Assembly (NCBI GenBank): GCA_019306365.1
Contig: JAFDLS010000014.1
Coordinates: 1-42,006 of the forward strand
Source: Deltaproteobacteria bacterium
Lineage (GTDB): Bacteria > Desulfobacterota > Desulfarculia > Adiutricales > JAFDHD01
DNA: 42,006 nucleotides
Reading direction: 5' to 3'
Part shown: positions 1,490 through 37,765 of the stretch, piece after piece
Numbering within the stretch: position 1 is the first letter of the stretch
Layout: every line of letters starts with the position of its first letter
Made by a program: the position numbers and the translations under genes
The notes under the pieces: model-generated
The model's input: the letters and a program-made list of their open reading frames with translations, nothing else
The model's database searches: none
Told to the model about the DNA's origin: nothing

Positions 1490-1739
1490 GCCGGCTTACT
1501 TCCTATTAATTTCAGACAAAAACAAGCGCCAATTTAGTAATATTCATGATCTTGCATTGCTGTTCCCGGGCCGCGGTCCCTATTTAGAGTGCTGAGCTTG
1601 AGTTTTTACTTCACTTGCGTCTTTAAGATCTCAAGAGAGATGGTAATACGTCATAGCGAACACTCGAAAAAGATTAGCACGGCCTGCCCCAGGCCTTTCA
1701 AATCCATAAAAAACAATGACTAAAGGCCGGCTTGCAGTA

Positions 1740-1910
1740 TTAGTTCAGAGGTTTCGCCTCATCAATGAGCATTATGGGGATGTCGTCCTTTATCTCATAC
1801 AGGAGCTGGCAGTTTTCACAAATCAAACCATCTTCAGACTCGGTCAGATTCAAGTCCCCCTTGCATTTTGGACAGGCCAGCACCTCTAACAGTTCCTTGC
1901 TTATAGGCAT
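1740..1910 (-). CDS. Trm112-family zinc-ribbon small protein (YcaR-like)
   Basis: A 56-residue protein beginning MPISKELLEVLACPKCKG. It has the CPKC...CENC four-cysteine pattern and the ending typical of Trm112/UPF0434 proteins (YEIKDDIPIMLIDEA). The start is secure: AGGAGGAAGAT lies immediately upstream of the ATG. In E. coli the homologue YcaR sits between lpxK and kdsB, so its place in this LPS cluster fits known context. Its bacterial role is not settled; eukaryotic and archaeal Trm112 activates methyltransferases. The visible cysteines suggest zinc binding. Repeat A1 begins 57 bases upstream, so the promoter would have to lie in that short gap, within A1, or further upstream. Confidence 0.9.
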   Translation of the reverse strand: MPISKELLEVLACPKCKGDLNLTESEDGLICENCQLLYEIKDDIPIMLIDEAKPLN

Positions 1911-1966
1911 ATCTTCCTCCTGTTAAATTCAGACCATATATACTTTCGACTATTTTTACAAATATA

Positions 1967-2141
1967 TGAGACCTCTGCAAAACATCGTCCTTTAGCCGAA
2001 CTCATGAGCGCCGCTTCGCTGATGCTGCAGCGGCATATGTCAGTCTCAAATTTAAGCCCTCGAAATATTAGTAATATTCCTGCGGGTTAAATTTTCGCCT
2101 TCCGCGATTTCAACAAAATTACTGGTTTTGCAGAGGTCTCA
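1967..2141. repeat. MITE-like repeat A1 (175 bp)
   Basis: A non-coding element with perfect 17-bp terminal inverted repeats: TGAGACCTCTGCAAAAC at 1967-1983 and its complement at 2125-2141. The interior contains a GC-rich palindromic patch around CTGCAGCGGCATATG and an AT-rich patch (AATATTAGTAATATT). A copy of the same length in the same orientation lies at 3200-3374 (A2), with only scattered substitutions. The right end abuts the stop codon of waaC (TAA at 2143-2145). No transposase is visible in the window. No convincing target duplication flanks this copy. Confidence 0.9.
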
Positions 2142-2142
2142 T

Positions 2143-3168
2143 TTACAATTCAAGCCTGGTTCGAACCGCCTCATAAACCTCGTCAACGCTCAATTCTGTC
2201 ATGCATTTAGGATCCGGGCAACTCTTCCGAAAACACGGGCTGCATTCAAGTTCTCGTCTCAAAACCAGATGACCAGGGCCAAAAGGTCCGGTCCTCCACG
2301 GCGCGGTTGGCCCAAACAGCGCCACGACAGGAACTCCCACCCCGGCGGCCAGATGCATTGGTCCGGTGTCTGGGCAAACAACAAGATCCGCGGATCGAAA
2401 AATTTCCATTAAAACCTTTAGGCTGGTCTGACCGGTCACATCCAAAGCCCCATGGCTGCCTTGAAAAATCTCCCGATTAAAAGCCCTGTCCTGCGGTCCG
2501 CCGGTAAGCACCACCTGTATATCCAATTCCCGGGACATGCGCCGAATCAATTCCTTCCATGACTCACGCGGCCAAAGCTTGGTCGTCCATCTGGCCACAG
2601 GGTTGAGCACGACTTTGGGTTTGCCGCTACCGGCAAGCATCTGCTCGGCCCGGTGAGCCGCGTCATCGTTTCTAGGCAGGCAGAATTTGACATTCTTGTC
2701 AACCTCAGCCCCTAAAAGCGCCGCTACATCAAGATAACGCAGCAAGGCGTGCTGGTCAATATTGTAAGGCTCCATGCGCCGGTTATAGAAAAGATAGCTC
2801 AGCTCCCGAGATCGATCAAAGCCCACTTTCTGCCGACCACCGCTGAGGAAAGCGAAAATACCACTTTTAAAAAGCCCCTGCAAGTCAATAACAAGGTCGT
2901 ATTTCTCTGATCGAAGATCTTTCAGGAATAGGCGTATCTCCTTAATTGTTGAACGAATTCGTCCCTTTTTAATCTCCCTTATCCAACTCTTCCGGTGCGA
3001 GACCAGCACCCGGTCGATTTGGGAATGATCAAGAACAATGTCTGACGCTGCTTCTTCGACCAACCATGTCAGGCGAGCCTGTGGATAAGTTCGGCGCAGA
3101 GCCTCCAGAAATGGCTGGCACTGTGCCACGTCACCGATAGCGCTTAGTTTGATAATCAGTATATTCAA
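2143..3168 (-). CDS. waaC: LPS heptosyltransferase I (WaaC), GT9 family
   Basis: Transfers L-glycero-D-manno-heptose from ADP-heptose to Kdo of Kdo2-lipid A at the cytoplasmic face of the inner membrane. The N-terminus NILIIKLSAIGDV is the GT9 acceptor-domain opening. VIDLQGLFKSG (about 97-107) and the donor-domain signature DTGPMHLAAGVGVP followed by ALFGPTAPWRTGP are all present. I chose the TTG at 3168 (341 residues) because AAGGGGAAG lies just upstream and homology begins there. The longer reading from 3282 would take its first residues from repeat A2 and should not be annotated. The C-terminus has a CSPCFRKSCPDPKC cysteine cluster, as in other bacterial GT9 enzymes. The gene is bracketed by direct repeats A1 and A2. 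Confidence 0.93.
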   Translation of the reverse strand: MNILIIKLSAIGDVAQCQPFLEALRRTYPQARLTWLVEEAASDIVLDHSQIDRVLVSHRKSWIREIKKGRIRSTIKEIRLFLKDLRSEKYDLVIDLQGLFKSGIFAFLSGGRQKVGFDRSRELSYLFYNRRMEPYNIDQHALLRYLDVAALLGAEVDKNVKFCLPRNDDAAHRAEQMLAGSGKPKVVLNPVARWTTKLWPRESWKELIRRMSRELDIQVVLTGGPQDRAFNREIFQGSHGALDVTGQTSLKVLMEIFRSADLVVCPDTGPMHLAAGVGVPVVALFGPTAPWRTGPFGPGHLVLRRELECSPCFRKSCPDPKCMTELSVDEVYEAVRTRLEL

Positions 3169-3199
3169 AAAAACGACTTCCCCTTGATGAAAGCTAGTT

Positions 3200-3374
3200 T
3201 GAGACCTCTGCAAAACTTCGTCCTTTAGCTGAACTCTTGAGCACCGCTTCGCTGACGCTGCAGCGGCGTATGTCAGGCTCAAATTTAACTCCTCGAAATA
3301 TTAATAATATTCCTGCGGGTTAAATTTTCACCTTCCGCGATTTCAACAAAATTACTGGTTTTGCAGAGGCCTCA
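3200..3374. repeat. MITE-like repeat A2 (175 bp), second copy
   Basis: Near-identical in length and order to A1 and in the same orientation. The ends are TGAGACCTCTGCAAAAC and a complement with one change (GGCCTCA in place of GGTCTCA). If the element is taken to begin at GAGACC (3201) and end at 3373, it is flanked by a 5-bp direct duplication AGTTT (3196-3200 and 3374-3378), as expected of a transposed element. It separates gmhB from waaC, two genes otherwise expected to be tightly packed. Its left end is 31 bp upstream of the waaC TTG, so any gmhB-waaC readthrough transcript must cross it. Confidence 0.9.
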
Positions 3375-3385
3375 GTTTAACCTTT

Positions 3386-3964
3386 TCAAATTTCTTTGAG
3401 GATCCAATCCACCGCCCCGCTAAGATCCTCCGCCACAAAATCCGGCCTCACTTCTGAATTGGGTAACAAATACTCCAGCTCTCCCCTTCCATAGCCGCTC
3501 AGAACAAGAATATTCCTTGTTCCCGCCGCCTGACCGGTTTTTATATCGGCCAGTCTGTCACCAATAGAAAAAGAACGGGCCAGGTCAAGCTTCAGCCGGG
3601 CCGTGGCCTTCTCGATTAACCCTGGCCGGGGTTTGCGGCATTCACAATCTTTCCGGTACTCATGCACTTCAGCCTGTGGGTGGTGAGGACAGTAATATAT
3701 CCCGTCAAGTTTGGCCCCGTCACGAGCCAGAAGATCCTTCATCTTTTTATTAACCGCGTCAACCAGATCTTTTGGGAAGTACCCCCGTGCCACACCGGAC
3801 TGATTGCTGGCAACAACCACGGCCAACCCTGCCTGATTGAGTCTGGCAATGGCGGAACCTACACCGGGCAGAAGCCTGAAACGATCGAGGTGATTGATGT
3901 ATCCCATCTGTTCGTTGATCGTTCCATCCCGATCAAGAAAAACAGCGCGTCTAAGATCCGTCAC
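3386..3964 (-). CDS. gmhB: D-glycero-D-manno-heptose 1,7-bisphosphate 7-phosphatase (GmhB)
   Basis: HAD-family phosphatase of the ADP-heptose pathway. It removes the 7-phosphate from heptose bisphosphate in the cytosol and so supplies the WaaC and WaaF donor. The catalytic motif FLDRDGTIN is at the N-terminus. ASNQSGVARG (HAD motif 2), a zinc site of the type CPHHPQ...CECRKP, and GDRLADIKTG (motif 4) follow in order. I prefer the GTG at 3964 (192 residues) over the in-frame ATG at 3985 because AAAGGAGG lies 8-9 bases upstream of the GTG; E. coli GmhB is about 191 residues. The start overlaps the end of waaF by 14 bases, so the two are translationally coupled. Confidence 0.93.
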   Translation of the reverse strand: MTDLRRAVFLDRDGTINEQMGYINHLDRFRLLPGVGSAIARLNQAGLAVVVASNQSGVARGYFPKDLVDAVNKKMKDLLARDGAKLDGIYYCPHHPQAEVHEYRKDCECRKPRPGLIEKATARLKLDLARSFSIGDRLADIKTGQAAGTRNILVLSGYGRGELEYLLPNSEVRPDFVAEDLSGAVDWILKEI

Positions 3965-5024
3965 CAGATTCGCCTCCTTTTCCAATTAATTCTAGTCCGG
4001 CTGTCGCCACCTCTTCCGGTTTAACAAGCTCCATGCAAAGATGGTTCGACTGGGTGCAAACGCGCTTCAAACAGGGCGCGCAATCCACGGGATGACGAAT
4101 TACACGAGCATTGTTAGTGAAAGGACTCGTGGTGATTGGATTTGTTGAGCCAAATATGGCCACCAGCGGTGTGCCCACCGCTGCACCAACGTGCATCAAG
4201 CCCGAATCATTAGTTAAAAATAAATGACAACGCTTTATCAAGGCCGCGACCTCGGCCAGATCCGTCCTTCCCGCAAGATCATAGGCTGGAACTGTCAGGA
4301 ACTCCTTAATCCCTTTGGTGACCATAACTTCACTTTGACTGCCAAACAAAAGAGCCGTTCCACGTTTATTTTCAAGAATAACCTGGGCCGCTTTCGCGAA
4401 TTTTTCCGGCGGCCACTGTTTAGCCAGGCCATAGGAAGCTCCGGGGGCAATGCCCAATATAAAGGAGCCATCTAAGTTCATTTCGGAAAGCCTGGCTGAA
4501 GCCCATTGTTCGGCCGAAGAAGGCAGATGAAAGATAGGATTAGATTGATTAACCTTCAAACCGGACCGGCGAATTAAACCCTGATAAGACTCAACCTCGT
4601 GAATTTGTTTGTCTTCGGGCCGGTGTCTGACAGCCCGGTTGAGTAAAAAGCCCCGGCCGTCCGTATTGTACCCCAGGCGCTCGGGTATCCGCGCCAGCCA
4701 GGCAAGCAAAGCCGCGCCGAACGCGTGCTGAAAGAGCACGGCCAGATCGAACCGTTTTGCGCGGACCTCCCCCGCCAAACGATTAAAACCGGACCAACCC
4801 TTGTGTCTGCGCTCTCGATCGTAGATTATAATCTCATCCACAGCCGGATGATCCTCATAGACCGCCGTCACCCTGCTTCTGGCCAGAACCGAAATGCGCG
4901 CCTCAGGAAAATTTGCTTTCAGTGAAGCCAATGCCGGAGTAGTCAGTAACGCGTCGCCAACCCAGTTGGTTGACCGAACCAGGATGCGCCGGATGTTACT
5001 CCGTGTAAGTTCCATAAAGCTCAA
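3951..5024 (-). CDS. waaF: ADP-heptose:LPS heptosyltransferase II (WaaF)
   Basis: GT9 enzyme adding the second heptose to the LPS inner core. After a short lead the protein reads ILVRSTNWVGDALLTTPAL, the WaaF form of the GT9 opening (WaaC has KLSAIGDV instead). The donor-site signature TNDSGLMHVGAAVGTP and AIFGSTNPITTSPF are near residues 270-300. The C-terminal cysteines CAPCLKRVCTQSNHLC match WaaF. Length 357 is normal. The ATG at 5024 overlaps the lpxK stop in an ATGA arrangement. A second ATG four codons in is possible but the coupled start is the better choice. Confidence 0.94.
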   Translation of the reverse strand: MSFMELTRSNIRRILVRSTNWVGDALLTTPALASLKANFPEARISVLARSRVTAVYEDHPAVDEIIIYDRERRHKGWSGFNRLAGEVRAKRFDLAVLFQHAFGAALLAWLARIPERLGYNTDGRGFLLNRAVRHRPEDKQIHEVESYQGLIRRSGLKVNQSNPIFHLPSSAEQWASARLSEMNLDGSFILGIAPGASYGLAKQWPPEKFAKAAQVILENKRGTALLFGSQSEVMVTKGIKEFLTVPAYDLAGRTDLAEVAALIKRCHLFLTNDSGLMHVGAAVGTPLVAIFGSTNPITTSPFTNNARVIRHPVDCAPCLKRVCTQSNHLCMELVKPEEVATAGLELIGKGGESGDGS

Positions 5025-6097
5025 TCGGCCTCCTGATTCGGATATATCATGGCCATAAATTCGTCCTTTCGTTCCAAGATTTCAAACTCCACGCCCAGAA
5101 CCCATACCTCCAGGGGTATACCCCATTTGCGTAAATCATCGGTCCGCAATTTAACAGCATCCTTGGCCGTGGTCACTGCTTTTTTTATACCCAGCTCCCT
5201 GGCCCTGGCCGCCAGGGATAGAAGATCGCTGCGCCGGGCATGAAAATGATCGGGCCACTCAACGAAACCCGCCACCTCAACGCCTAGCCCGGTTAAAGTA
5301 TCCAAAAAGACCTGGGGTCTGGCCAGACCGCAAAAAGCCAGAACTCTTGTCCCAACCAGGAAACCTAAATCCTTTTCAGCATCCCCCTGAAGCTTGGTCA
5401 GCGACACTGGTTGGTGTCTTGCCGGAAAAATTGACCGGCTTGGAAAATCCTTTTCCAACTCTTCTATGAGCTGCCGATTATTATATTCGGACCGGGTAAT
5501 CATGAAGGCCGTGGCCCGGGCGGCTTGAGACCTGGGTTCGCGTAATGGGCCGGCAGGCAAAATCCAGCCGTTTCCCCAGGGATTTTTAGCGTCCAAAAGC
5601 AGCAGATTGATATCCCTTTTTAGCTTCAGATGCTGAAAGCCATCATCTAAAATTAGGGTCTGGACATCAAAATGATCAATTGCATACTGACCCGCGAGAT
5701 GTCGATCTTTCCCGGTCAGCACAGCCACGCCGGGCAAGGACTCTGCAATCAAATAGGCTTCATCCCCTGCCTGGAAAGGGCTGAGAAGAATTTTTTTTCC
5801 ATCAGAAACAATATTCACCGATTCCTTGGCGTTGCCGTGATAACCTCGGCTTAAAACCGCGGTCTTTATACCCATTGCATGGAGCTGTCCGGCGATAAAG
5901 ATCACGGCTGGGGTCTTGCCAGTCCCCCCAACCACCAGATTCCCCACGCTGATGACCCAGGCCTTCAGATGATCGGATTTGAGGCGACCGGAATTGTAAA
6001 GCTTCAGTCGAAGATCAACCGCCGCCCCATAAAGGGAAGTCAGCCTGCGGCGAAAAAATCCCGGGCGTGTTGAATAGAGATCAATTGAAAGATTCAT
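5021..6097 (-). CDS. lpxK: Tetraacyldisaccharide 4'-kinase (LpxK)
   Basis: Phosphorylates the 4' position of the lipid A disaccharide to give lipid IVA; membrane-associated and ATP-dependent. The Walker A loop GNLVVGGTGKTP is at residues 52-63 and is the LpxK-specific form. LSRGYHG, GDEAYLIA and ILDDGFQHLKLKRD (about residues 150-163, a stretch very characteristic of LpxK) follow. Length 358 is slightly above E. coli LpxK (328). Both ends overlap neighbours by four bases: its ATG overlaps the waaA stop and its stop overlaps the waaF ATG, so waaA-lpxK-waaF form one coupled unit. Confidence 0.95.
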   Translation of the reverse strand: MNLSIDLYSTRPGFFRRRLTSLYGAAVDLRLKLYNSGRLKSDHLKAWVISVGNLVVGGTGKTPAVIFIAGQLHAMGIKTAVLSRGYHGNAKESVNIVSDGKKILLSPFQAGDEAYLIAESLPGVAVLTGKDRHLAGQYAIDHFDVQTLILDDGFQHLKLKRDINLLLLDAKNPWGNGWILPAGPLREPRSQAARATAFMITRSEYNNRQLIEELEKDFPSRSIFPARHQPVSLTKLQGDAEKDLGFLVGTRVLAFCGLARPQVFLDTLTGLGVEVAGFVEWPDHFHARRSDLLSLAARARELGIKKAVTTAKDAVKLRTDDLRKWGIPLEVWVLGVEFEILERKDEFMAMIYPNQEAD

Positions 6098-7392
6098 CGG
6101 TCTGCCGCGCTCCGTAAAGCAAGAGCCCGTTTTACTAGTTCCATATTTCGATCAATCGCTCCCTGGTGTGCTTCGATAACCGCGCGGGCCCGCTTTCCCA
6201 TCTCTTTCCTTTTTTCAGGATCGGCTAACAGACTTTTCAGTTTCATCTTGAGATCATCCCGGTCAGCGACCTGAATTCCCCCTCCGCCAGCGAGGATCAA
6301 CCGGGCTATCTCCTGAAAGTTTTGCATTCGGCGGCCGAAAAGAACAGGTTTGAAATGAGCTGCGGGCTCGAGCAGGTTATGTCCTCCGCCCTCCCCTGAA
6401 CCGGGCAGGCTTTTACCGATAAAAACCACATCCGCCAACTCATAAAAACGGTCCAGTTCACCCTGAGTGTCGAGTAAAAAAACCCTGGTTTCAGCAGAAG
6501 GCTTCGGCCCGCTGCGGCGGGCGGCTTCCACTTTTCGCTGCTGGATCAGCTGCCAGACCTGCTCAAATCGAGATTTATTCCGTGGAGCAAGCAATAGCCT
6601 CAGTTCAGGAAAGTCCGCAGCAAGCTCCGTAAAAATTTCAAGGAGGGCCTCCTCTTCTCCAGGATGTGTGCTGCCGCCTACCAGCCAGACACCGCGAGGA
6701 AGACCGCTTTCGGTCAGCAAAACCTCACGAATCTCTGGACCGGTTTTTGGCTGAGCGCGGTCGAACTTGAGATTTCCGGTTACCACAATCCGATCGGAAC
6801 CCGCGCCCAAATCGAGCATCCGCTGTTTATCAAGATTTGTTTGGACACCAATGAAAGTGAACAGATTCAGGACCTTTTTCCACCACCTCTTAATCAACCG
6901 GTAACGGGAGTAAGAGCGGTCGGAAACTCTGGCGTTTATTAGCACGACTGGTATTTTTTTCTGTCTGAGACGGGCCAGAAAGTTTGGCCAGATATCCGTT
7001 TCCACCAGCACAACCAGGTCCGGCTCCACCTGATCTTGAACCCGCCTTACAGCTGGAGGCCAGTCATAAGGAAACTGCATAATTTGGGCTTTATCTGAGA
7101 ACCTGGTTTGTGCAATTTGACGGCCGCTTCGGGTGGTGGTGGACAGGCAGACATCATAACCTTCGGATTTGAGGCGGTTAATGAATTCCTGCGCAGATAA
7201 AGTCTCACCCAGACTCAAAGCATGGACCCAGATTCTAACGGATGACTTCGGTTCCAGACTAATATCTCTCAAGCCCAGCCGGTCTGGAAAATTCCAGAGA
7301 TACTTGCCGGATGCCAACCCTTTCACTAAATAATAAGGAGCCAGGGCCACGGCGGCCCCGCTGTAAGCCAGCGTGTAAAAAGGGAACATCAT
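6094..7392 (-). CDS. waaA: 3-deoxy-D-manno-octulosonic acid transferase (WaaA/KdtA)
   Basis: Transfers Kdo from CMP-Kdo to lipid IVA at the inner membrane. A hydrophobic N-terminal anchor (about residues 3-25) is followed by IWVHALSLGETLSAQEFI, the acceptor-site motif of KdtA. VETDIWPNFL (about 126-135) and the donor-side GEGGGHNLLEPAAHFKPVLFG stretch, with FxE/LLEPA signature, are present. Length 432 agrees with E. coli WaaA (425). The ATG at 7392 is the first gene after a 441-bp gap and is probably served by a promoter there. Whether it adds one or two Kdo residues cannot be judged from sequence. Confidence 0.95.
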   Translation of the reverse strand: MMFPFYTLAYSGAAVALAPYYLVKGLASGKYLWNFPDRLGLRDISLEPKSSVRIWVHALSLGETLSAQEFINRLKSEGYDVCLSTTTRSGRQIAQTRFSDKAQIMQFPYDWPPAVRRVQDQVEPDLVVLVETDIWPNFLARLRQKKIPVVLINARVSDRSYSRYRLIKRWWKKVLNLFTFIGVQTNLDKQRMLDLGAGSDRIVVTGNLKFDRAQPKTGPEIREVLLTESGLPRGVWLVGGSTHPGEEEALLEIFTELAADFPELRLLLAPRNKSRFEQVWQLIQQRKVEAARRSGPKPSAETRVFLLDTQGELDRFYELADVVFIGKSLPGSGEGGGHNLLEPAAHFKPVLFGRRMQNFQEIARLILAGGGGIQVADRDDLKMKLKSLLADPEKRKEMGKRARAVIEAHQGAIDRNMELVKRALALRSAADR

Positions 7393-28706: not shown

Positions 28707-28897
28707 AGCGTTTGTCATAAAAAAGTTCCGTTTGGCCTTGAGGCAGGAGAAGATTTAATTTCGATTTTTATCGTAAGTTACCATATGACAAACGCCAAAA
28801 CATCCTGTAACTGCGGCCTGTTACATCATGTTAGCCGCTGTTAGAGGCTTGATTTAGCTTAGAAATCATACGGAAAAAATTCTGGCAATTACTAGAA
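28707..28897. repeat. Inverted-repeat copy C1 (about 191 bp)
   Basis: Begins AGCGTTTGTCATAA and ends GGCAATTACTAGAA. A diverged reverse-complement copy (C2) lies at 31845-32036. C1 has an internal subunit, 28708-28795, bounded by perfect 11-bp inverted repeats GCGTTTGTCAT and ATGACAAACGC, then a tail rich in short dyads. The copies share the order of all segments with many substitutions, so the duplication is not recent. It abuts repeat B on its right and the 46-residue gene on its left. No coding potential seen. Confidence 0.85.
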
Positions 28898-29067
28898 GCT
28901 ATCTCAAAATTAGCGTTTTGGTCTAAATCGCGGAGAAAGAAAATTTAACCCGCAGGAATATGTTAGATATTTCGAGGACTTAATTTTGAGCCTGACATAT
29001 GCCGCTGCAGCGTGAGCGAAGCGGTGCTCATGAGTTAGGGTAAAAAAACTTTTTTGAGATGGCTTCT
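28894..29067. repeat. MITE-like repeat B: A-type core with different termini
   Basis: 174 bp. The interior (AATTTAACCCGCAGGAATAT ... CATATGCCGCTGCAGC ... AGCGAAGCGG) is the A1/A2 interior in reverse orientation. The ends, however, are AGAAGCTATCTCAAAA (28894-28909) and TTTTGAGATGGCTTCT (29052-29067), a 16-bp inverted pair with one mismatch and unlike the TGAGACCTCTGC ends of A1/A2. It fills the gap between C1 and the tlyA stop codon at 29077. Confidence 0.85.
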
Positions 29068-31844: not shown

Positions 31845-32036
31845 TTCTAGTAATTGCCAGAATTACGTTCCGTTTGATTACTAAGGTAAATCAAGGCTCT
31901 AACAACGGCTGACAACATATAACACAAGGCAATTACATGATGTTTTGGCGTTTGTCGTAAGGTGGCTTACGCGAATGGCCGAAATTAAACCTTCTCTCAC
32001 CCTAAGGCCAAACAGAACATATTTATGACAAACGCT
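31845..32036. repeat. Inverted-repeat copy C2 (about 192 bp)
   Basis: Reverse complement of C1 with substitutions: reading the minus strand it begins AGCGTTTGTCATAAATATG and ends CTGGCAATTACTAGAA. The inner subunit ends GCGTTTGTCAT and a one-mismatch partner (ACGACAAACGC). It fills most of the 363-bp gap between ispA and dxs; the remaining ~138 bases next to dxs (31707-31844) show no gene. Any ispA-dxs cotranscript or a dxs promoter must cross or lie in it. Confidence 0.85.
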
Positions 32037-32069
32037 CTAACTCCTCGTAATTAACAGGGTGAATTTGTT

Positions 32070-36808: not shown

Positions 36809-36847
36809 AGAAGCTATCTCAAAATTAGTGGTTTTGCAGAGGTCTCA
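36809..36847. repeat. 39-bp mini-element U1
   Basis: The left 20 bases AGAAGCTATCTCAAAATTAG equal the left end of repeat B; the right part (TGGTTTTGCAGAGGTCTCA, 36829-36847) equals the right end of A1 and A2 (with one change). It thus joins the two kinds of terminus with no core. An inverted, slightly diverged copy lies at 37728-37765 on the other side of nudC. Confidence 0.75.
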
Positions 36848-36912: not shown

Positions 36913-37728
36913 ATGCGGTTTATACCAGCCGTTGTACCGATCTCGGAAGCTAACGAACCCGAATGGTGGTTTCTTTTTCGTGAGTATAAACTCCTGGTTA
37001 AAAAGGAAGGTGAAGCCTTTTCCATACCGTACCTTGAAGACCTTGAAACCTTCAACCTGAGCCCAGTACGAACACAATATCTTGGAACGCTTGATGGCCG
37101 TCCCTGCTATTCAGGGGAGTTAGCGGACCATGCCGATCCTCCCCCTGGTATGGCTTTTCAAGGGTTACGAAGCCTGTTTGAAAGTATGGGGCCGGAGCTC
37201 TTCGGGCTGGCGGGACGGGCTTTTCAGATAGTCGATTGGGATCGGACCAACCAGTTCTGCAGCAGGTGCGGGGAACACGTGGAAACTAAAAGTGACGAGC
37301 GCGCAAAGGTCTGTCCAAAATGCGGGATGCTGAATTACCCGCGCCTTTCACCGGCAGTTATCGTGGCGGTGCTGAAAGAAAATCAAATACTCCTGGCGCG
37401 CAACGGTCGTTTCCCAAATGGATTCTACAGCGTTCTGGCAGGCTTTGTGGAGCCTGGAGAAACCTTTGAAGATTGCGTAAAACGGGAAGTTAAAGAGGAA
37501 GTCGGCCTGGAGGTTAAAAATATACGCTACTTTGGCAGTCAGCCCTGGCCCTTCCCGAACTCGGTTATGATTGGGTTTATAGCTGATTATGACAAGGGAG
37601 AAATAACCATAGATGGAAATGAGATTAAGGATGCGGGCTGGTTCCCGGCGAGCGACCTTCCTCTCATCCCGGGTAAAATAAGCATTGCCCGCCAACTGAT
37701 AGATTGGTTCCTGGAAAATTATCAATAG
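36913..37728 (+). CDS. nudC: NAD(+)/NADH diphosphatase NudC
   Basis: Hydrolyses NAD(H) to NMN(H) and AMP, and in E. coli removes NAD caps from RNA. 271 residues. An N-terminal domain (about 1-112) is followed by a zinc ribbon FCSRCGEHVETK and VCPKCGMLNYPR. The Nudix box GFVEPGETFEDCVKREVKEE then VGL (about 177-199) fits GX5EX7REUXEEXGU. SQPWPFPNSVMIGF (about 212-225) is the NudC-specific motif that separates it from other Nudix enzymes. Length matches the family (E. coli 257). A ribosome site is weak (AAAGGAATATTA). Its stop codon touches mini-element U2. Confidence 0.94.
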   Translation: MRFIPAVVPISEANEPEWWFLFREYKLLVKKEGEAFSIPYLEDLETFNLSPVRTQYLGTLDGRPCYSGELADHADPPPGMAFQGLRSLFESMGPELFGLAGRAFQIVDWDRTNQFCSRCGEHVETKSDERAKVCPKCGMLNYPRLSPAVIVAVLKENQILLARNGRFPNGFYSVLAGFVEPGETFEDCVKREVKEEVGLEVKNIRYFGSQPWPFPNSVMIGFIADYDKGEITIDGNEIKDAGWFPASDLPLIPGKISIARQLIDWFLENYQ

Positions 37729-37765
37729 AGACCTCCGCAAAACAGGTAATTTTGAGATAGCTTTT
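37728..37765. repeat. 38-bp mini-element U2, inverted copy of U1
   Basis: Reads GAGACCTCCGCAAAACAGG then TAATTTTGAGATAGCTTTT, the reverse complement of U1 with a few changes. Its first base is the last base of the nudC stop codon TAG. The rest of the gap to the CoA-ligase gene (to 37858) shows no clear promoter. Confidence 0.75.

Follow-up and report, generated by a model that had tools for sequence, protein, structure and literature searches.

Does the heptosyltransferase gene waaC of this Deltaproteobacteria bacterium, which lies between two co-oriented copies of one repeat, form a unit that the repeats can remove or deliver, or have two mobile elements settled beside it by chance? The window, the whole stretch of 42,006 nucleotides that was analysed, is contig 288 of a MAG of 3,586,339 bases (3.59 Mb) in 383 contigs, with a completeness of 90.5%. 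The repeats A1 and A2 belong to a MITE family, here called F1, whose terminal repeats are designated class A. Together with the genes around waaC they are arranged as follows.

737–1489: GT2 glycosyltransferase gene, beyond waaC and near the Trm112-like gene
1740–1910, minus strand: gene of a Trm112-like small protein, downstream of waaC
1968–2140, plus strand: A1, F1 MITE copy of 173 bp with class-A ends GAGACCTCTGCAAAAC; target duplication not recognised
2143–3168, minus strand: waaC, heptosyltransferase (Glyco_transf_9) gene with a TTG start, in its ancestral place in the operon
3201–3373, plus strand: A2, F1 MITE copy of 173 bp with one mismatch between its ends and a 5-bp target duplication, AGTTT
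3386–3985, minus strand: gene of a gmhB-like HAD phosphatase, upstream of waaC
3951–5024, minus strand: gene of a waaF-like heptosyltransferase, upstream of the gmhB-like gene
5021–6097: lpxK, upstream of the waaF-like gene
6094–7392: waaA, upstream of the waaF-like gene and lpxK

Placement of A1 and A2 around waaC

The intervals 1967–2141 (A1) and 3200–3374 (A2) are equal in length and co-oriented, as the first-pass annotation had stated, and are 93% identical (12 mismatches in 175 positions) at a spacing of 1233. That annotation described a 175-bp MITE-like element. The MITE-like character holds, given the inverted ends and the hundreds of copies, but the transposed unit measures 173 bp, because the outermost T/A is part of the target duplication. 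The mobile unit, GAGACC...GGTCTC with a 5-bp target duplication, was read from the flanks of many copies. The 17-bp inverted repeat attributed to both copies is perfect in A1 and carries one mismatch in A2; when up to three mismatches are allowed, its sequence, TGAGACCTCTGCAAAAC, is found at six places in the window, compared to 0.08 in shuffled sequences. The AGTTT duplication noted at A2 is present on both of its flanks (3196–3200 and 3374–3378). The flanks of A1 are TATAT and ATTTA, so that no target duplication is recognisable. The close contact with waaC is also as described: the end of A1 is 2 bp from the stop codon, and 31 bp separate the TTG start from A2 on its upstream side. The covariance model R1, which is introduced below, matches A1 with 84.7 bits (E 7e-16, minus strand) and A2 with 68.3 bits (E 2.5e-12, at 3231–3373). 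The similarity of the two sequences is far beyond chance, but their placement around waaC is not.

The only same-genus genome found (G001) contains the order waaA-lpxK-waaF-gmhB-waaC-Trm112-GT2, which is that of the window in the same direction, with protein identities of 73–91%. The waaC orthologue of G001 is 74% identical and has the same TTG start. There are no copies of the element between the operon genes of G001, and the R1 model has no match in that locus (L127). The element-free operon has the same gene order, and waaC is therefore ancestral and not a cassette. The first-pass annotation had proposed looking for copy-free junctions in relatives. At A2 such a junction is present: the gmhB–waaC spacer without A2 and one AGTTT aligns with the G001 spacer over its full length, including the ribosome-binding site and the TTG start. 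The waaC–Trm112 spacer, which is the site of A1, aligns poorly with that of G001. The synteny and the aligned empty site indicate that an old operon was entered twice by the element, with the reading frames left open.

How often genes become bracketed was determined in a sample of 815,408 bases (the window, L034–L073, and L180–L199), which is 23% of the genome and contains 699 genes according to greedy ORF calls. Twenty-three of these genes are singly bracketed by two neighbouring copies, ten of them, waaC included, by co-oriented copies. Neighbouring copies lie within 1.5 kb of each other in 25 pairs, compared to 31.7 ± 3.5 under uniform placement, and nothing sets waaC apart from the other bracketed genes of the sample. 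The bracketing of waaC is an ordinary, chance outcome of copy density, and the coincidence that the first-pass annotation had allowed for is the alternative that holds. A genome with an estimated one element per approximately 8.5 kb is expected to contain bracketed genes in numbers, which is a warning for the interpretation of waaC.

A functional switch or an acquired cassette, in which the A1-waaC-A2 unit would remove or deliver waaC by recombination or co-transposition, is very improbable. In its favour are the shared orientation, the 93% identity, and a longest identical run of 39 bp, and the TIMEs include composite elements that have a miniature element at either border (PMC4133298). However, waaC occupies the same place in G001 and is not missing from the site there, the outer flanks (TATAT and AGTTT) do not form a common duplication, A2 has a duplication of its own, and the bracketed genes of the sample are numerous. 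Both the cassette and the switch were rejected on these grounds. Deletion of waaC by recombination between A1 and A2 is physically possible, but any pair of this kind has that property. Instead of two transpositions, a tandem or segmental duplication of the local pair would account for the like orientation and length, but such a duplication is extremely improbable. Among the relatives of A1, A2 ranks 29th of 69, and A1 ranks 20th among those of A2, whereas the closest relatives of A1 elsewhere in the genome are 96.5% identical. Since neither copy is the closest relative of the other, A1 and A2 are separate insertions, which contradicts a local duplication, and the target duplication of A2 also speaks against it. 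The preferred reading is that of separate insertions placed by chance.

The F1 family and its putative transposase

F1 is a new high-copy MITE family. Its members are short, lack a transposase gene, occur in many copies, and have matched terminal inverted repeats and a target duplication of fixed length. All 40 scored matches, from 436 first-look candidates, are 94–100% identical to A1. Terminal repeats with up to two mismatches occur 560 times in the genome (295 + 265), whereas the reversed control gives none. BLAST with the consensus finds 128 F1 loci in the sample, 127 of them intergenic and one within a gene. The genome contains 286 exact 16-mer ends, of which 87 are in the sample; scaling by this proportion provides an estimate of about 420 copies. 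Compared with the consensus, 70 copies have a median identity of 94.8%. The copies are 141, 173, or about 206 bp long (range 141–208), corresponding to zero, one, or two internal units of 32–33 bp. Among 75 paired copies, the 5-bp target duplication is exact in 32 (0.55 expected from shuffles) and recognisable in 45 when one mismatch is allowed (3.8 expected); none of the other lengths from 2 to 10 bp is as prominent.

The copies are distributed unevenly among the types of gaps between genes, with 23 in 11.3 kb of net spacer between convergent genes, 24 in 30.1 kb between divergent genes, and 61 in 56.9 kb between tandem genes. The densities indicate that gene ends are preferred. In tandem-gene gaps of this genome, 40 of the 61 copies are oriented opposite to the genes. 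The preference for gene ends fits promoter avoidance and does not require a function.

Several known MITEs resemble F1 by description. Chunjie of Geobacter uraniireducens, with 38 copies and conserved ends, is palindromic, 178–235 bp long, and intergenic, and has one copy inside an operon that was left intact (PMC10969869). F1 is about ten times more numerous, the likeness is one of description and not of sequence, and the passages on Chunjie mention no core shared between end classes. ERIC, which reaches up to 711 copies in one genome, and Correia-type MITEs are likewise high-copy intergenic hairpins without genes (PMC10969869); as far as they are described there, they have a single kind of end, whereas here one core is combined with several end classes and duplication lengths. 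The minisatellite MITE of Porphyromonas gingivalis also has an internal unit in variable number (PMC4596501), but its host is unrelated and it is likened to F1 by description, not by sequence.

The exact 16-mer ends of F1 are present in none of the 40 other genomes of the order and in none of the 62 others of the class. In a phylum sample of 395 genomes, including the one studied here, GAGACCTCTGCAAAA occurs in 18 genomes and GAGACCTTTGCAAAAC in 19. Many of the inspected end-bearing loci are gene-free hairpins of 120–250 bp, and several are unpaired matches that are probably due to chance. One genome, G259, contains an insertion sequence of 1223 bp with the ends GAGACCTTTGCAAAA and GAGACCTTTGAAAAA and a transposase of 313 amino acids.

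L220, 1018–2240, and L210, 1253–2475: IS5-type insertion sequence of G259 with class-A ends

The G259 transposase scores 246 bits against the NCBIfam IS5 model NF033581, which has a cut-off of 140, and a relative of it is present in genome G301; by plasmid annotation the family is ISAba23-like. The class-A terminal repeat is the end of an insertion sequence with an IS5 transposase, and judging from this sequence match an IS5-type enzyme most likely moves class A. The partner was found only in another host family than that of the window genome. Of its copies in G259, one has a 6-bp repeat and the others are without a clear repeat, and there is no clean 5-bp duplication. The genus of G259 also has MITEs with class-A ends and unrelated interiors.

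In the window genome, class-A ends accompany none of four hits to PF01609 transposases, and there is no match to the G259 transposase. Ten long TIR-to-TIR intervals in the 815-kb sample have ordinary genes in the longest frame of each. An autonomous partner with class-A ends was not found in the assembly, whose completeness of 90.5% leaves its absence unproven, and the local enzyme may be missing or lost, may have diverged too far, or may be encoded in sequence that was not assembled. A plasmid or phage vehicle was considered and rejected, as plasmids, phages, and viral contigs provided no match; the exact core patterns were absent from viral contigs in all three scans, in which exact matching is insensitive.

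A hairpin core under different terminal repeats

Beyond its ends, F1 shares its interior with elements of other genomes. The covariance model R1 was built from seven aligned copies, two of them from the window genome and five from families f55, f38, and f8. The structure that it describes is a single long, imperfect hairpin with 51 pairs, seven of which show compensatory changes. At E ≤ 1e-4 the model matches 83 of the 395 genomes of the phylum sample, a count that is over-inclusive because coreless hairpins with class-A ends reach 31 bits and E-values down to 1e-4. The best E-value is 1e-10 or better in 59 of the 395 genomes, as counted by eye from the listed values. The core set comprises 65 full-length copies of at least 104 bits each from 35 other genomes in 15 families; since the copies were gathered by model search, elements without the core are unevenly sampled. 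The core of approximately 100 bp thus recurs in at least 35 other genomes of 15 families, or 16 families with that of the window genome. The interiors align almost without gaps, with a mean column identity of 79% in 50 copies, those of the window genome included.

The ends of these elements fall into several classes. Among 69 sequences (the 65 copies and four from the window genome), 25 belong to class A (GAGACCTTTG), 19 to class C (GGGTACCTTG), 11 to class D (GTGTCCATCCAG), six to class E (GTGCCTGAACG), three to class B (GAGCCTCTTG), two to class G (the second family of the window genome, F2), and one to class F, and two are unclassified. The classes, including GAGACCTTTG, GGGTACCTTG, and GTGTCCATCC/GTGCCTGAAC, differ in their target duplications of 5, 4, and 6 bp, respectively. 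The duplication is 5 bp in 10 of 22 class A copies (0.5 expected), 4 bp in 9 of 19 class C copies (0.9 expected), and 6 bp in 6 of 17 copies of classes D and E (0.7 expected); the 4 bp in two of three class B copies come from too few copies. Such lengths are what different transposases would leave, and they are independent of the end sequences.

F2, with GAAGCYATCTCAAAA ends, has TA on both sides in six of seven copies and TT in one, corresponding to a 2-bp duplication. One copy is in the window.

28895–29066, plus strand: F2 MITE copy with the A1/A2 core, ends GAAGCTATCTCAAAA and GAAGCCATCTCAAAA, and TA on both flanks; R1 core match at 28931–29001, E 1.3e-6

In L049 (15428–15567), another F2 copy has inserted into an F1 copy at its central TA, which shows the TA target. 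The right half of an F2-like element is present in G001 (L031, approximately 1495–1575). F2 may therefore be older than the divergence of the window species and G001, whose genome lacks F1 ends. G015, of the same order, contains a 142-bp element (L032, 909–1050) with the core motif, another end class (GAAGCGCCGATTAATG), and 71 bits in the R1 search.

The cores remain similar across the end classes. BLAST of the core between classes provides E-values from 1e-24 to 1e-37, and single comparisons between classes reach 93% identity over 105 bp; between families, too, the identity is up to 93%. The median interior identity between classes A and D is 84%, similar to the 83% within class A, whereas the identity of the ends drops from 88% to 53%. 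Column conservation is 0.84 in the unpaired core, 0.88 in the paired core, and 0.66 in the ends.

It is possible, although doubtful, that the core is a functional host element, either a structured RNA or a protein-binding hairpin, that became mobile, and not a selfish hairpin. Conservation of the unpaired columns is close to that of the paired ones and much higher than that of the ends, both arms of the core keep their differences, and G-T exceeds A-C in the shared pairs (24 and 9 of 1150 cells). This excess is suggestive only, leaning weakly towards an RNA of the given strand, as it is small, the rows are related, and the strands were assigned by an RNA-energy model. Against a host element, the copies are numerous, scattered between genes, and multiplied in species-specific bursts, all of which looks selfish, and Rfam does not contain an acceptable match. 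No family is above its gathering score in window positions 1700–3700, and six loci gave only RF03601, with scores of 25 and 23 bits where the gathering score is 100; a known Rfam RNA family was therefore rejected.

Exchange or divergence of the ends

Different end classes occur on the same core within single genomes: A and D in G190, D and E in G382 and G267, and A and G in the window genome (G000). The D and E cores of G267 are 89% identical over 116 bp, and G192 has class D and an unclassified end. At the 124 loci of the window genome's sample that are away from contig edges, two F1 ends were found 68 times, two F2 ends seven times, one of each six times, an F1 end only 39 times, and an F2 end only four times. 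Two core-less hybrids are in the window.

36811–36847, plus strand: hybrid of 37 bp in which an F2 end directly adjoins an F1 end with no core between them, located upstream of nudC (36913–37728)
37727–37763, minus strand: another such hybrid of 37 bp, likewise core-less, in inverted orientation on the downstream side of nudC

Further core-less pieces of the 37-bp type occur singly in L035 (19516–19553) and L048 (9105–9142). Copies with one F1 and one F2 end, such as the six of the sample, are the intermediates expected if the end of one side is replaced first, and within one genome they are natural intermediates for testing end exchange.

The conserved core can be read as having repeatedly acquired new ends. 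An alternative is that ends and transposases diverged together gradually, with the core kept constant by selection and no end ever swapped. In classes A, B, C, and F the inner half of the end is of one TTGAAAAAT-like type, and the ends of D resemble those of E; part of the end diversity could therefore be gradual divergence. The end classes are also clustered on a tree of the core only, with 13 class changes compared to a minimum of five and a shuffled mean of 26.9. The tree is based on few columns and has many unresolved forks, and its well supported branches force only one or two changes per class. However, duplication length varies with class, near-identical cores have different classes in one genome, as in G267, hybrids of F1 and F2 exist, and AAAA is nearly all that class A ends have in common with the TA-type F2 ends. 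Gradual co-divergence of all ends is therefore considered unlikely. The explanation as a whole, which combines separate MITE insertions by chance at waaC with a core whose ends appear to have been exchanged, is favoured with good confidence. That the core is an independent replicator, which survives by changing transposases via hybrids and is kept for its use to a transposase or the host, is a serious possibility, put forward tentatively.

In this explanation, A1 and A2 are separate F1 insertions in the gmhB–waaC and waaC–Trm112 spacers of a vertically inherited LPS operon. They would have been mobilised in trans by a DDE transposase, most likely of IS5 type, that cuts at GAGACC...GGTCTC and leaves 5-bp duplications. 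F1 is the local branch of a phylum-wide family in which the unit of inheritance is the imperfect hairpin core of approximately 100 bp. The core would have received several kinds of matched terminal repeats, each kind recognised by a transposase of its own that leaves 5-, 4-, 6-, or 2-bp duplications. Recombination within the shared core, or a switch of template there, could provide a new end, and the second end might then be matched by copying across the hairpin, which offers its own template. The core is presumably maintained by selection.

Bacterial MITEs are usually viewed as dead insertion sequences whose ends are kept for the transposase while the inside decays, as summarised in PMC10969869. 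Here, the inside is conserved over 16 families of the phylum and is combined with variable ends and duplication lengths, which raises the question of how a non-autonomous element outlives its transposase. The Tn3-derived TIMEs are also non-autonomous modular mosaics with duplications of 5–6 bp, but as described (PMC4133298) their ends are constant and their contents variable, which is the reverse of the arrangement found here. Bacterial MITEs with one core and different ends were not found in the literature searched, which mostly excluded subscription papers.

The genome also contains a third family of interspersed elements, which are about 200 bp long and unrelated to the others; one member is located at window positions 31845–32041 with the ends TAGTAATTGCC... 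and ...GACAAACGCTCTA. It occurs at 41 sites in the 815-kb sample, and its ends match imperfectly.
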